A DNA stretch of 64,000 nt from Sphingomonas alba (GTDB lineage: Bacteria; Pseudomonadota; Alphaproteobacteria; Sphingomonadales; Sphingomonadaceae), in the NCBI RefSeq assembly GCF_023516555.1, contig NZ_JAMGBD010000001.1, positions 806,001 through 870,000 of the forward strand, given 5' to 3'. The notes below the pieces were generated by a model. That model did not search any database and had not been told where the DNA came from. It saw nothing but the letters and a program-made list of their open reading frames with translations. Shown one piece after another: positions 48,310-52,357 of the stretch (the stretch's first letter is position 1; each line of letters starts with the position of its first letter). Both the position numbers and the translations under genes were made by a program.

Positions 48310-48741
48310 TTAGCCCTCCACAACCTGGAGGCCCATGGCGCGCGCCGAGCCTTCGATAATACGGGTCGCCGCCTCAATCGAGTTGGCGTTCAAATCCTTC
48401 ATCTTCGCTTCCGCAATCTCGGCGAGCTGCGAGCGGCGGATGGTGCCGGCCGAAACCTTGCCCGGCTCCTTGGAGCCCGACTTCAGCTTGGCAGCCTTCT
48501 TGAGAAGGAACGACGCCGGCGGCGTCTTGGTGGCGAAGGAGAACGAACGATCCGCATAGACGGTGATGACCGTCGGGATCGGGGCGCCCTTTTCCAGGTC
48601 CTGCGTCGCGGCGTTGAACGCCTTGCAGAATTCCATGATGTTGACGCCGCGCTGGCCAAGCGCCGGGCCGATCGGCGGCGACGGATTGGCGATGCCCGCG
48701 GGCACCTGCAGCTTGATATAGCCGGTGATTTTCTTTGCCAT
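48310..48741 (-). CDS. rplK: 50S ribosomal protein L11
   Basis: The 143-residue protein is canonical L11 ([36 protein letters not shown] in parts; C-terminal rRNA-binding domain with MKDLNA and GSARAMG). It binds the GTPase-associated centre of 23S rRNA. Normally nusG lies directly upstream; here a 2.5-kb insertion with two opposite-strand genes intervenes, so its own promoter is required. A weak candidate is TTGCTC (48919-48914) and TACAGG (48896-48891), spaced 17. Confidence 0.98.
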
Positions 48742-48760
48742 GTCTCACTCTGTATTTCGT

Positions 48761-48779
48761 CTGAAAGTCGTACTTTCAG
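48761..48779 (-). promoter_or_regulatory. Hairpin in the rplK leader
   Basis: CTGAAAGT and ACTTTCAG form a perfect 8-bp stem with a 3-base loop, ending 20 bases before the rplK start codon. It may mark the L1 target site on the operon mRNA; this is an inference. Confidence 0.45.
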
Positions 48780-49216
48780 CCGGTTTCAAGTTTAGCGGTT
48801 CAAGCGACCACCCGAAGGTAACCTCCCGCACGACCTGTTCCCCGGCGAAGGCCGGGGTCCAGTTTTCCATGCTTTCGCTTGGAGGCGGCGCCTGTAGCGG
48901 AAGACGCCGCGGAGAGCAAATTCGGGCACGAGGGTAACGCTTTCCTACGAAAACGGGGGGTTGTTACCCAAAGTGTTACCTTGTTCATCTTGGCGAGCGC
49001 TGCGTTGACCCGGCGCGAAACGGGGGGTTGTCAACTTCGTCAACTTTGCCCGGTGACTCGGCTGGCCGCTCATCCGTGAGGATATGCGCGATCTTGGGGG
49101 CTGTAGGACAGAGGTTTCTCGCCCGAGCGCAGGTGAGCGCTTTGCGAAGCAAACGGGAGCCAGCGCGTAGAGAGCGAGAAACCCGGACGGCCTGCGCCGA
49201 AGGCGACAGGACCGAC

Positions 49217-49237
49217 GTGACGAATTTACTTCGTGAC
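49217..49237 (+). repeat. Dispersed hairpin, copy 1
   Basis: GTGACGAA, TTTAC, TTCGTGAC: an imperfect palindrome that matches, in inverted orientation, the copy at 52177-52197 at 18 of 21 positions. Flanking bases also resemble each other (GGCCTGCG... and GACCTGCGG...). Confidence 0.6.
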
Positions 49238-49277
49238 AGACCTTGTTACTTTGACCTCGCTCGGTTTGGGGGTGTGT

Positions 49278-50150
49278 ATGGCCAAAGGCGTGTTCCTTGT
49301 CCGAGCAGACTCAATCTACGATGATCAACCGGAGGTTAGGTACCAATTCCCTCGGCAATATCTCAGTCGTGCGTCCCAATTTGTGGGAGACTGGATCGTC
49401 TATTTTGAACCCGTGAAAGCAGGGAAACAAGGATATCACGCCGTCGCGAAGGTCGAGCGCATCGTTCCCGACCCCTCAGCCGAAAGCAGATATCTCGCAC
49501 TTATTGAGCCCGGATCTTATCTGCCTTTGGAGCAAGCGGTACCCTTCCGCATCAACGGTGAAGTCGTTGAGAGGGGCGTCTTAAATGAGGAATCTCGAAT
49601 CTCTGGCCGCGCTCAGTCCGCGGTGCGCCCACTATCTGATTCCGATTTCAATCGAATTGTAGCACTCGGCCTTTCCGAAGATGGACTACCCACTGGGACT
49701 ATAACGGGGGTGGCTGAGGATCAGACTCCGTTCGACGTCCCCAGAGACCGCACGACTCTACTCACGTCTCGTTTGGTTCGAGACAAGGTATTCCGAGCGA
49801 AGGTCTTGGAAGCATACGATTCACGATGTGCGCTAACTGGGTTCAAGTTCATCAACGGCGGCGGAAAAGCAGAGGCCCAGGCTGCGCACATCAAGCCAGT
49901 CGAGGCAAACGGCCCAGACATCGTCACGAATGGCATCGCACTGTCCGGCACGGTTCACTGGATGTTCGACCGGGGTCTTTTATCGCTAGCGGACGATCTA
50001 ACGATTCTGTTGTCCAGTCGGATCAACGACGTCGACGGCGCGCGCAAACTGATTAATCCGTCGGGGCGGGCCAGTCCGCCATCAGCTTCGAACTTGCGGC
50101 CGCATCCGAAATACTTGGAGTGGCATCGTCAACATTGCTTCAAAGGATGA
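49278..50150 (+). CDS. HNH endonuclease with possible EVE/PUA-like N-terminal domain
   Basis: The 290-residue protein has an N-terminal region (1-120: GVFLVRADSIYDD, FVGDWIVYFEPVKAG, YHAVAKVERIVPDP) that looks like a PUA/EVE-type module, known in relatives to read modified bases. The C-terminal HNH nuclease has CALTGF, AAHIKP (His204), NGIALS (Asn218) and HWMFDRG (His227). A modification-dependent restriction nuclease is the likely role, acting on invading DNA. Base composition is clearly lower in GC than neighbouring genes, suggesting transfer. ATG 49278 gives the best N-terminus. The next gene starts 20 bases downstream. Confidence 0.82.
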   Translation: MAKGVFLVRADSIYDDQPEVRYQFPRQYLSRASQFVGDWIVYFEPVKAGKQGYHAVAKVERIVPDPSAESRYLALIEPGSYLPLEQAVPFRINGEVVERGVLNEESRISGRAQSAVRPLSDSDFNRIVALGLSEDGLPTGTITGVAEDQTPFDVPRDRTTLLTSRLVRDKVFRAKVLEAYDSRCALTGFKFINGGGKAEAQAAHIKPVEANGPDIVTNGIALSGTVHWMFDRGLLSLADDLTILLSSRINDVDGARKLINPSGRASPPSASNLRPHPKYLEWHRQHCFKG

Positions 50151-50169
50151 TCAAAGTGGGGCGGTGGCA

Positions 50170-51087
50170 ATGAGCGATCTCAAGCTTTTTCGTGTGAAAG
50201 GGAACGGCGTTGCTCAGCTGACAGGCGGAGCAGTCGCACTGGAAAAATCACTCCAATTGACGTTTGAGATGAATCTCGAAGCGCTTCTGGGCGTACGATT
50301 CCTAGCATCGGAATATGTGACAGAGGGCGGCCGGATGGACACGCTCGGCATCGATGAAAACGGCACGCCCGTGATTATCGAATACAAGCGATCATCAAAC
50401 GAGAATGTCATCAACCAGGGCCTGTTTTATCTGAACTGGTTGATGGGCCATCGAAAGGATTTCGAGTGGTCGGTACTTGAGCGCTTCGGTGCCGACGAAG
50501 CCAAAAAGGTCGATTGGTCCGGCCCCCGACTGATTTGCATCGCAGGCGATTTCACCAAGTATGATGAGCACGCGGTCAAGCAGATGAACCGTAATATCGA
50601 CCTAATCCGCTACCGAAAATTCGAGGGTGACCTTTTGCTTCTAGAGCAACTGACGACAACAAGCGCCAGCGCCTCTGGTGGGTCAGTCAGTACCGCATCG
50701 GGCATCAGCGCAGCGGGCGCTAAGGGGAAATACAAATCAGTTTCGCAGCAAATTCAGGAGGCACCCCCAGCCCTCAAAGATCAATATGAGTCGCTTGCAA
50801 GTTATCTGATGGCCTTGGGAGACGATGTTTCGGTAAAGCCAACGGAATGTTACGTCGCGTTTCGTCGCATCAAGAATTTTGCCTGTGTCGAAATTCGCAA
50901 CCAGATCAACAAGTTGCTGATTTACGGTAAGGTCAATCCCGACACAGTTCAATTAGAGCCGGGGTTCACCCGCGACGTCCGCAAAATCGGACACTACGGA
51001 ACCGGAGACCTGGAAATCACGATCGCAAGTGATTTAGATTTTGAAAAGGCGAAGCCCCTTTTGGATCGAGCATACAACGAAGCGTAG
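50170..51087 (+). CDS. PD-(D/E)XK-like nuclease with C-terminal DUF5655 domain
   Basis: The 305-residue protein has an N-terminal region resembling NucS-type restriction-fold nucleases: Asp57 (GRMDTLG), Glu71 and Lys73 (IIEYKR), then NQGLFYLNWL. A Ser/Ala/Gly linker (about 165-190) leads to a DUF5655 domain (about 205-303; KNFACVEIRNQINKLLIYGK, GFTRDVRKIGHYGTGDLEI). Together with the preceding HNH gene it forms a two-gene cassette on the plus strand inside a minus-strand ribosomal cluster. An antiphage or DNA-processing role is inferred. Composition is AT-rich compared with neighbours. Confidence 0.82.
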   Translation: MSDLKLFRVKGNGVAQLTGGAVALEKSLQLTFEMNLEALLGVRFLASEYVTEGGRMDTLGIDENGTPVIIEYKRSSNENVINQGLFYLNWLMGHRKDFEWSVLERFGADEAKKVDWSGPRLICIAGDFTKYDEHAVKQMNRNIDLIRYRKFEGDLLLLEQLTTTSASASGGSVSTASGISAAGAKGKYKSVSQQIQEAPPALKDQYESLASYLMALGDDVSVKPTECYVAFRRIKNFACVEIRNQINKLLIYGKVNPDTVQLEPGFTRDVRKIGHYGTGDLEITIASDLDFEKAKPLLDRAYNEA

Positions 51088-51111
51088 CGGACACCCCAAA
51101 CAGGACTTTCA

Positions 51112-51139
51112 AAAGAAAAGGGCCGCCGAAGCGGCCCTT
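51112..51139 (-). terminator. Terminator of the secE-nusG operon
   Basis: On the minus strand AAGGGCCGC (51139-51131), a TTCG loop, GCGGCCCTT (51126-51118), then TTTCTTTTG. It should end secE-nusG transcription before the cassette, and thus before rplK. Confidence 0.85.
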
Positions 51140-51220
51140 GGGGCGGCGTGCGGTCAGCAGGACAGACAGTGACCGCAACTTACTTGGCAGGCTGGCTACC
51201 CCGCCAAGCCGCTGAATGGA

Positions 51221-51238
51221 TTCCCGCCTGCGCGGGAA
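51221..51238. repeat. REP-like intergenic hairpin
   Basis: TTCCCGC, CTGC, GCGGGAA. Short sequences around it (TGGATTCCCGCC...GGGAATGACG) match a hairpin type widespread between alphaproteobacterial genes. A similar one (CCCCGGC/GCCGGGG) lies on the other side of the nuclease cassette at 48840-48857. Confidence 0.55.
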
Positions 51239-51250
51239 TGACGAGTGGAG

Positions 51251-51790
51251 CTATTTAACTCGCTCGACTTGTTCAAACTCGAGTTCGACAGGGGTCGCTC
51301 GACCAAAGATCGAGACGGAAACTTTGACCCTTGCCCGGTCGAAGTCCAGCTCCTCCACGACGCCGTTGAAGCTGGCGAAGGGGCCGTCGAGGACCTTGAC
51401 CGCGTCGCCGATCTCGTAATCGACCTTGACGCGCTGCTTGGGCGCGGCGGCGGCGGCTTCTTCGCGGGTGGAGAGGATGCGCGCGGCTTCGGCCTCGCTG
51501 ATCGCCTGCGGCTTGCCGTTGGGGCCGAGGAAGCCCGTCACCTTCGGCGTGTTCTTCACCAAATGGTAGACGTCGTCGTTGAGGTTGAGCTTGGCGAGCA
51601 CATAGCCCGGGAAGAACTTGCGGTCGGACGTGACCTTCTTGCCTCGGCGGATCTCCGTCACCTTCTCGGTCGGGACCTCGACGGCCTCAACCAGGGCATC
51701 GAGGCCCATGCGGGTGGCGTCGGCGAGGATCTGGTCCTTCACCTTGTTCTCGAAGCCGGAATAAGCGTGGATGATGTACCAGCGGGACAT
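51251..51790 (-). CDS. nusG: Transcription termination/antitermination protein NusG
   Basis: The 179-residue protein has the NGN domain (RWYIIHAYSGFENKVKDQI, KFFPGYVLAKL) and the KOW domain (YEIGDAVKVLDGPFASFNGVVEEL). It binds RNA polymerase, suppresses pausing and couples with ribosomes or Rho. It follows secE by 76 bases and ends before a terminator. Confidence 0.98.
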   Translation of the reverse strand: MSRWYIIHAYSGFENKVKDQILADATRMGLDALVEAVEVPTEKVTEIRRGKKVTSDRKFFPGYVLAKLNLNDDVYHLVKNTPKVTGFLGPNGKPQAISEAEAARILSTREEAAAAAPKQRVKVDYEIGDAVKVLDGPFASFNGVVEELDFDRARVKVSVSIFGRATPVELEFEQVERVK

Positions 51791-52281: not shown

Positions 52282-52357
52282 TGGCAGGGGCAGAGGGACT
52301 CGAACCCACGACCCTCGGTTTTGGAGACCGATGCTCTACCAACTGAGCTATACCCCT
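52282..52357 (-). tRNA. tRNA-Trp (anticodon CCA)
   Basis: On the minus strand a 76-base cloverleaf with acceptor stem AGGGGTA/TGCCCCT, D arm with AGCTCAGTTGGTAGAGC, anticodon loop CTCCAAA, T arm GGGTTCGAGTCCC, and an encoded 3' CCA. The anticodon CCA reads the Trp codon. It precedes secE, as is common. Confidence 0.97.

Follow-up and report, generated by a model that had tools for sequence, protein, structure and literature searches.

VcaM4I is an EVE-HNH modification-dependent type IV endonuclease in which a hydrophobic pocket formed by P24, W82 and Y130 receives the flipped modified base and H224, N241, D250 and D254 are the catalytic residues (PMC7897488). EVE-HNH fusions have previously been described as putative type IV enzymes, and MmcQ/YjbR domains, which adopt a double-wing fold and are likely to bind DNA, are found in defence clusters (PMC7641849). 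PDC-S18 is listed by PADLOC as a candidate phage defence made up of a single gene. In this study, we analyzed a stretch of 64,000 nucleotides from Sphingomonas alba (hereafter, the window, whose numbering is used throughout) in which genes of these two catalogued kinds, an EVE-HNH type IV enzyme and a PDC-S18 candidate, lie side by side between nusG and rplK.

Results

Two foreign-looking genes between nusG and rplK

The genes rplK (48310-48741, minus strand), rplA and nusG (51251-51790, minus strand) were found where the initial annotation had placed them, and the 2,510 bp from nusG to rplK contain two genes on the plus strand. Gene 1 (49278-50150, 290 amino acids, with a start that agrees with its homologues) and gene 2 (50170-51087, 305 amino acids) are codirectional and separated by 19 bp. 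The annotation had spoken of two opposite-strand genes that interrupt the secE-nusG-rplK-rplA order; the insert is real and the genes do oppose nusG and rplK, but they share a strand with each other, and the interruption is not peculiar to this genome, as approximately one third of the family likewise carries genes between nusG and rplK.

When the 44 non-overlapping open reading frames (ORFs) of at least 200 amino acids in the window were compared, gene 1 and gene 2 ranked below all 42 others in GC content, GC3 and codon likelihood. Against a mean GC content of 0.632 (s.d. 0.024), gene 1 stands at 0.551 (z -3.3) and gene 2 at 0.515 (z -4.8). The lower GC content claimed for the cassette is thus borne out, the two genes being the most atypical of the 44, and this composition makes both look foreign.

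nusG-rplK is a recurrent insertion site

As the initial annotation had proposed, the nusG-rplK gap was compared across Sphingomonadales. In all 28 genomes of the genus in which the two genes are linked, the gap measures 0.6-10.5 kb and is filled mostly with different genes; it exceeds 800 bp in 27 of them, the exception being L075 with 611 bp. Of the 141 linked genomes from the rest of the family, 46 have a gap of more than 800 bp and most of the others one of 70-335 bp; ten genomes from the order's other families have gaps of 113-249 bp. The genus differs strongly from the remaining family members (Fisher p 1e-10) and these differ weakly from the other families (p 0.03), with counts not corrected for shared descent in either case. 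Throughout the 36 loci measured, the spacing between rplK and rplA, which served as a control, stays within 0-7 bp; the enlargement is therefore specific to the nusG-rplK junction. These results show nusG-rplK to be a recurrent insertion site for varied cargo, so that the insertion in S. alba is no one-off event, and the family survey rejects a feature restricted to the genus. The literature that we searched contained no paper on a nusG-rplK hotspot, which is no proof that the hotspot is unpublished.

The order can also be broken in other ways. In four members of the family (G281, G324, G206 and G244), rearrangement has left nusG and rplK far apart or in opposite orientation, and in two congeners (L046 and L061) rplK was not found within 15 kb downstream of nusG. 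In L075 (G010), nusG is matched at about 2031-2566 as two pieces that overlap and differ in frame, which probably reflects an assembly error or a frameshift.

The gaps of the genus hold 128 ORFs, including the two of the window, and few families recur among them. Pfam tallies list hydrolases, sigma and anti-sigma factors, transporters, kinases, PEP carboxylase and glycosyltransferases. Type I restriction-modification genes (in L048, as we read it) are also present, and so are an MmeI-like enzyme in L060 and a small number of methylases. A dedicated defence island was rejected, as the 126 gap ORFs examined with Pfam and PADLOC are mostly general cargo that includes a few restriction-modification systems.

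The cassette is bordered by native sequence

On the left, the region 48742-48903 (minus strand) appears to be the conserved promoter/leader of rplK: it has blastn matches to congeners, and the blocks that congeners share upstream of rplK, namely GCTANGGGCGCC, then TGCGGGAGG, then ACCGCTAAACTTGA, are recognisable within it. The native sequence therefore extends to approximately position 48903, and the foreign part spans approximately 48.9-51.1 kb. A palindrome at 48761-48779, to which congeners have similar hairpins at the same place, would be a hairpin of this leader, for which Rfam gave no match. On the right, the native edge is a predicted intrinsic terminator of nusG (51118-51139, minus strand) with a 9-bp stem and a T-rich tail; the terminator scan as a whole returned no more sites than shuffled sequences, and this call relies mainly on position and on the similar hairpins that sit just 3' of nusG in congeners.

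The repeats that the initial annotation had taken for borders have other explanations. One REP-like hairpin (51221-51242), whose motif occurs in 12 perfect copies genome-wide as a dispersed repeat, lies between the nusG stop codon and the predicted nusG terminator, and the second (48838-48859) falls, by its position among the conserved blocks, inside the rplK promoter/leader; both are thus parts of native transcription units. The 10-bp inverted repeat on the left is the leader hairpin at 48761-48779. The 14-base direct repeat is a G-run pair (48951-49035; copies at 48951-48964 and 49018-49031) internal to a dispersed element, and a similar pair with 68-bp spacing elsewhere in the genome rules out a target duplication. 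A further dispersed intergenic element, about 115 bp long (approximately 49122-49238), is matched more weakly at 10 other genomic places and occurs within the nusG-rplK gaps of some congeners (L048, L052, L054, L063 and L064); it could be a source of homology for cargo exchange.

Hairpins on both sides of the cassette would fit a REP-bounded mobile unit that brought both genes in as one transposable piece. The two hairpins differ in sequence, however, and one lies inside the 3' end of nusG and the other inside the leader region of rplK; no integrase or transposase gene was found in 48742-51250, and the congeners have other cargo with other edges. We consider such a unit extremely improbable. 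Neither terminal repeats nor a target duplication was found at the cassette, its repeats being dispersed elements, and the cassette does not qualify as a self-mobilising element. Integration directed by a tRNA was also considered and discarded: the sole nearby tRNA gene (Trp, 52282-52357) is beyond nusG, off the junction.

Gene 1 resembles modification-dependent EVE-HNH endonucleases

The HNH domain predicted in gene 1 was recovered as HNH_2 (PF13391). Across 22 homologues, the putative catalytic residues H204, N218 and H227 are invariant and D231 is present in at least 90%. An AlphaFold model built with these 22 homologues has a mean pLDDT of 76, with residues 1-130 mostly at 74-94, and a fold search of the PDB with this model returned VcaM4I (6yex) as the best match, followed by TagI; the E-value for VcaM4I (4e-8) owes most to the HNH half. 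The N-terminal domain matched the folds of the EVE protein PH1033 (1wmm), the McrB N-terminal domain, YTH and ASCH. A profile search of the PDB matched VcaM4I and TagI over the HNH half, and a sequence search of the PDB with the N-terminal domain yielded no EVE chain and nothing useful; the domain is identified by its predicted fold. Structure prediction and fold search together support the N-terminal PUA/EVE-like fold that had been suggested.

Gene 1 thus appears to share with VcaM4I (PMC7897488; 6yex) an N-terminal EVE-like domain and a C-terminal HNH domain. Residues H224, N241, D250 and D254 of VcaM4I correspond to H204, N218, H227 and D231 of gene 1, although the overall identity is only about 16% and a histidine (H227) replaces D250. 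The HNH half is also related to the phosphorothioate-dependent HNH enzymes of the ScoMcrA type (NF045808, E 8e-27), but the match is limited to residues 163-289 and its score of 94 bits falls short of the 180 required, and gene 1 was therefore not assigned to the phosphorothioate-dependent endonucleases.

A search of the genome for C5-cytosine methylases (PF00145) found none, as would be expected if the gene 1 enzyme attacks 5mC or 5hmC; the cassette itself contains no methylase. The HNH family is patchy in the order (69 of 351 genomes) and also occurs on plasmids of Alphaproteobacteria; of 51 such plasmids, 29 are predicted to be conjugative. In three loci (L100, L106 and L108), HNH homologues lie near an ORF that, as read from sequence, is integrase-like, suggesting carriage on integrative elements. 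The assignment of gene 1 as a modification-sensing restriction enzyme is well supported, its dependence on modification being suggested by the predicted sensor fold.

Gene 2 belongs to a family often found beside restriction genes

The call of a PD-(D/E)XK-DUF5655 protein was confirmed for gene 2, which combines a NucS-like nuclease domain (NucS_C) with DUF5655 (PF18899). Residues 1-304 match PADLOC PDC-S18 at E 2e-141, that is, nearly end to end, and D57, E71, K73 and Q83, which are invariant in the family, fit a PD-(D/E)XK core. The fold search matched the N-terminal half to NucS/EndoMS, the mismatch endonuclease, and the DUF5655 half to E. coli YjbR (2fki; probability 0.99, TM 0.60 by target), with an E-value of only 0.06. 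The predicted fold therefore likens the DUF5655 half to the double-wing MmcQ/YjbR domains, although in the cases described earlier these are fused to EVE (PMC7641849) and here the partner is a PD-(D/E)XK nuclease. Armadillo matches of gene 2 were dismissed as repeat artefacts.

The NucS-like fold of the N-terminal half raises the question of whether the locus serves defence at all: the HNH protein might be a nuclease for housekeeping or repair, and gene 2 might act as a nuclease in mismatch repair in the manner of NucS/EndoMS. Outside the nuclease domain, though, gene 2 has nothing of NucS, with DUF5655 at its C-terminus instead, and the NCBIfam NucS models match a short stretch only, at 25.5 bits against a cut-off of 216, so gene 2 was rejected as a full-length NucS/EndoMS. 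Patchy distribution, atypical composition and restriction-operon contexts are likewise unlike those of a core repair gene, and we regard a role in repair as very unlikely.

We inspected 83 DUF5655 loci from many phyla, with up to 6 kb on each side. Genes for hsdM, hsdS, hsdR or MmeI-like enzymes were near 47 of them as compared with 2 of 40 control loci (Fisher p 9e-9), an enrichment that is indicative because the controls are longer nusG regions not matched for phylum. Of 78 loci, 62 have their upstream neighbour on the same strand, and in 42 it lies within 60 bp; HsdS, MmeI and HsdM are the commonest families among these neighbours, and several DUF5655 genes overlap hsdS by 4 bp. On an annotated Cupriavidus plasmid, a methyltransferase gene (hsdM), HsdS, DUF5655 (4-bp overlap) and a DEAD-box helicase form one run; single loci have type III restriction or DRT neighbours. 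Direct adjacency to HsdS, HsdM, MmeI-like, type III restriction or DRT genes occurs in L127, L129, L135, L136, L140-L142, L150, L152, L154, L172 and L219. PDC-S18 genes are thus often companions of restriction operons, although the family is catalogued as a solo gene, and gene 2 is likely to be a nuclease of this habit. Within the order, the DUF5655 family is patchy (10 of 351 genomes). No paper on DUF5655 or PDC-S18 was found in the literature searched; this does not prove that its association with restriction operons is unpublished.

The exact pair is rare

Among the 351 genomes of the order, the HNH and DUF5655 families adjoin only in the window, and the sole further adjacent case among the 83 DUF5655 loci is a Sphingomonas metagenome-assembled genome (L134), in which the HNH protein is 59% identical, its gene is convergent with DUF5655 and an MmeI-like gene lies on the other side. 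With the window and one convergent case, the exact pair is not a conserved system, and co-conservation does not show a joint function. The initial annotation had proposed a modification-sensing restriction module of a combination that could not be placed in a named system. The reading as a nuclease and defence cassette stands, but the survey gives no support to a single module in the sense of a conserved system; each protein on its own is of a known kind.

This rarity bears on whether the two genes might be independent solo defence genes, made neighbours in a permissive accessory locus and sharing expression with no shared mechanism. HNH homologues usually lack a DUF5655 neighbour and most DUF5655 genes lack an HNH gene of this type; the two do not form an operon in L134; PADLOC treats PDC-S18 as a single-gene candidate; and the nusG-rplK site accepts varied cargo. 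Against this, the short spacing and common direction of gene 1 and gene 2 suggest co-transcription, DUF5655 genes tend to follow a restriction gene directly, and the two families have come to adjoin a second time in L134. We regard independence as possible but rather unlikely. Gene 1 and gene 2 probably constitute an anti-phage defence pair, in which both the effect on phages and the cooperation of the two proteins are what we infer.

Discussion

Taking together how the genes are arranged, their predicted folds and catalytic residues, their foreign composition, the contexts of the two families and the variability of the site, we favour, and hold to be reasonably likely, the explanation of a horizontally acquired two-gene restriction cassette at a recurrent site, composed of a type IV enzyme and an accessory nuclease. 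The patchy distribution of both families and their occurrence on plasmids also speak for it. The cassette would be seated between the terminator of nusG and a promoter that belongs to rplK. The EVE-like domain of gene 1 probably senses a modified base of incoming DNA, and the HNH domain would then cut this DNA. Gene 2, with its PD-(D/E)XK nuclease and putative DNA-binding MmcQ/YjbR-like domain, probably cuts or degrades the same invading DNA; its family is often accessory to restriction operons, and its partner here would be a type IV enzyme. Cargo most likely enters the site by recombination in the conserved flanks.

A plausible reason for the re-use of this site is that a terminator lies on one side and a promoter on the other: the site would tolerate cargo because nusG has its own presumed terminator and rplK its own presumed promoter/leader. 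More tentatively, we speculate that the DUF5655/PDC-S18 family could team up generally with restriction enzymes, be they type I, MmeI-like, type III or modification-dependent type IV, and add a second step of DNA degradation or sensing, and that such modules may be among the nusG-rplK cargo of Sphingomonadales relatives; we consider this wider role doubtful at present.

In our view, the parts worth reporting are the variable nusG-rplK locus and the association of PDC-S18 with restriction operons. Through its frequent embedding in such operons, PDC-S18, an orphan defence candidate, gains a testable role. Although the order of nusG and rplK is often regarded as invariant, in one bacterial family this junction has frequently been used anew for insertions, and the site could serve the study of integrase-free entry of cargo into a ribosomal locus.
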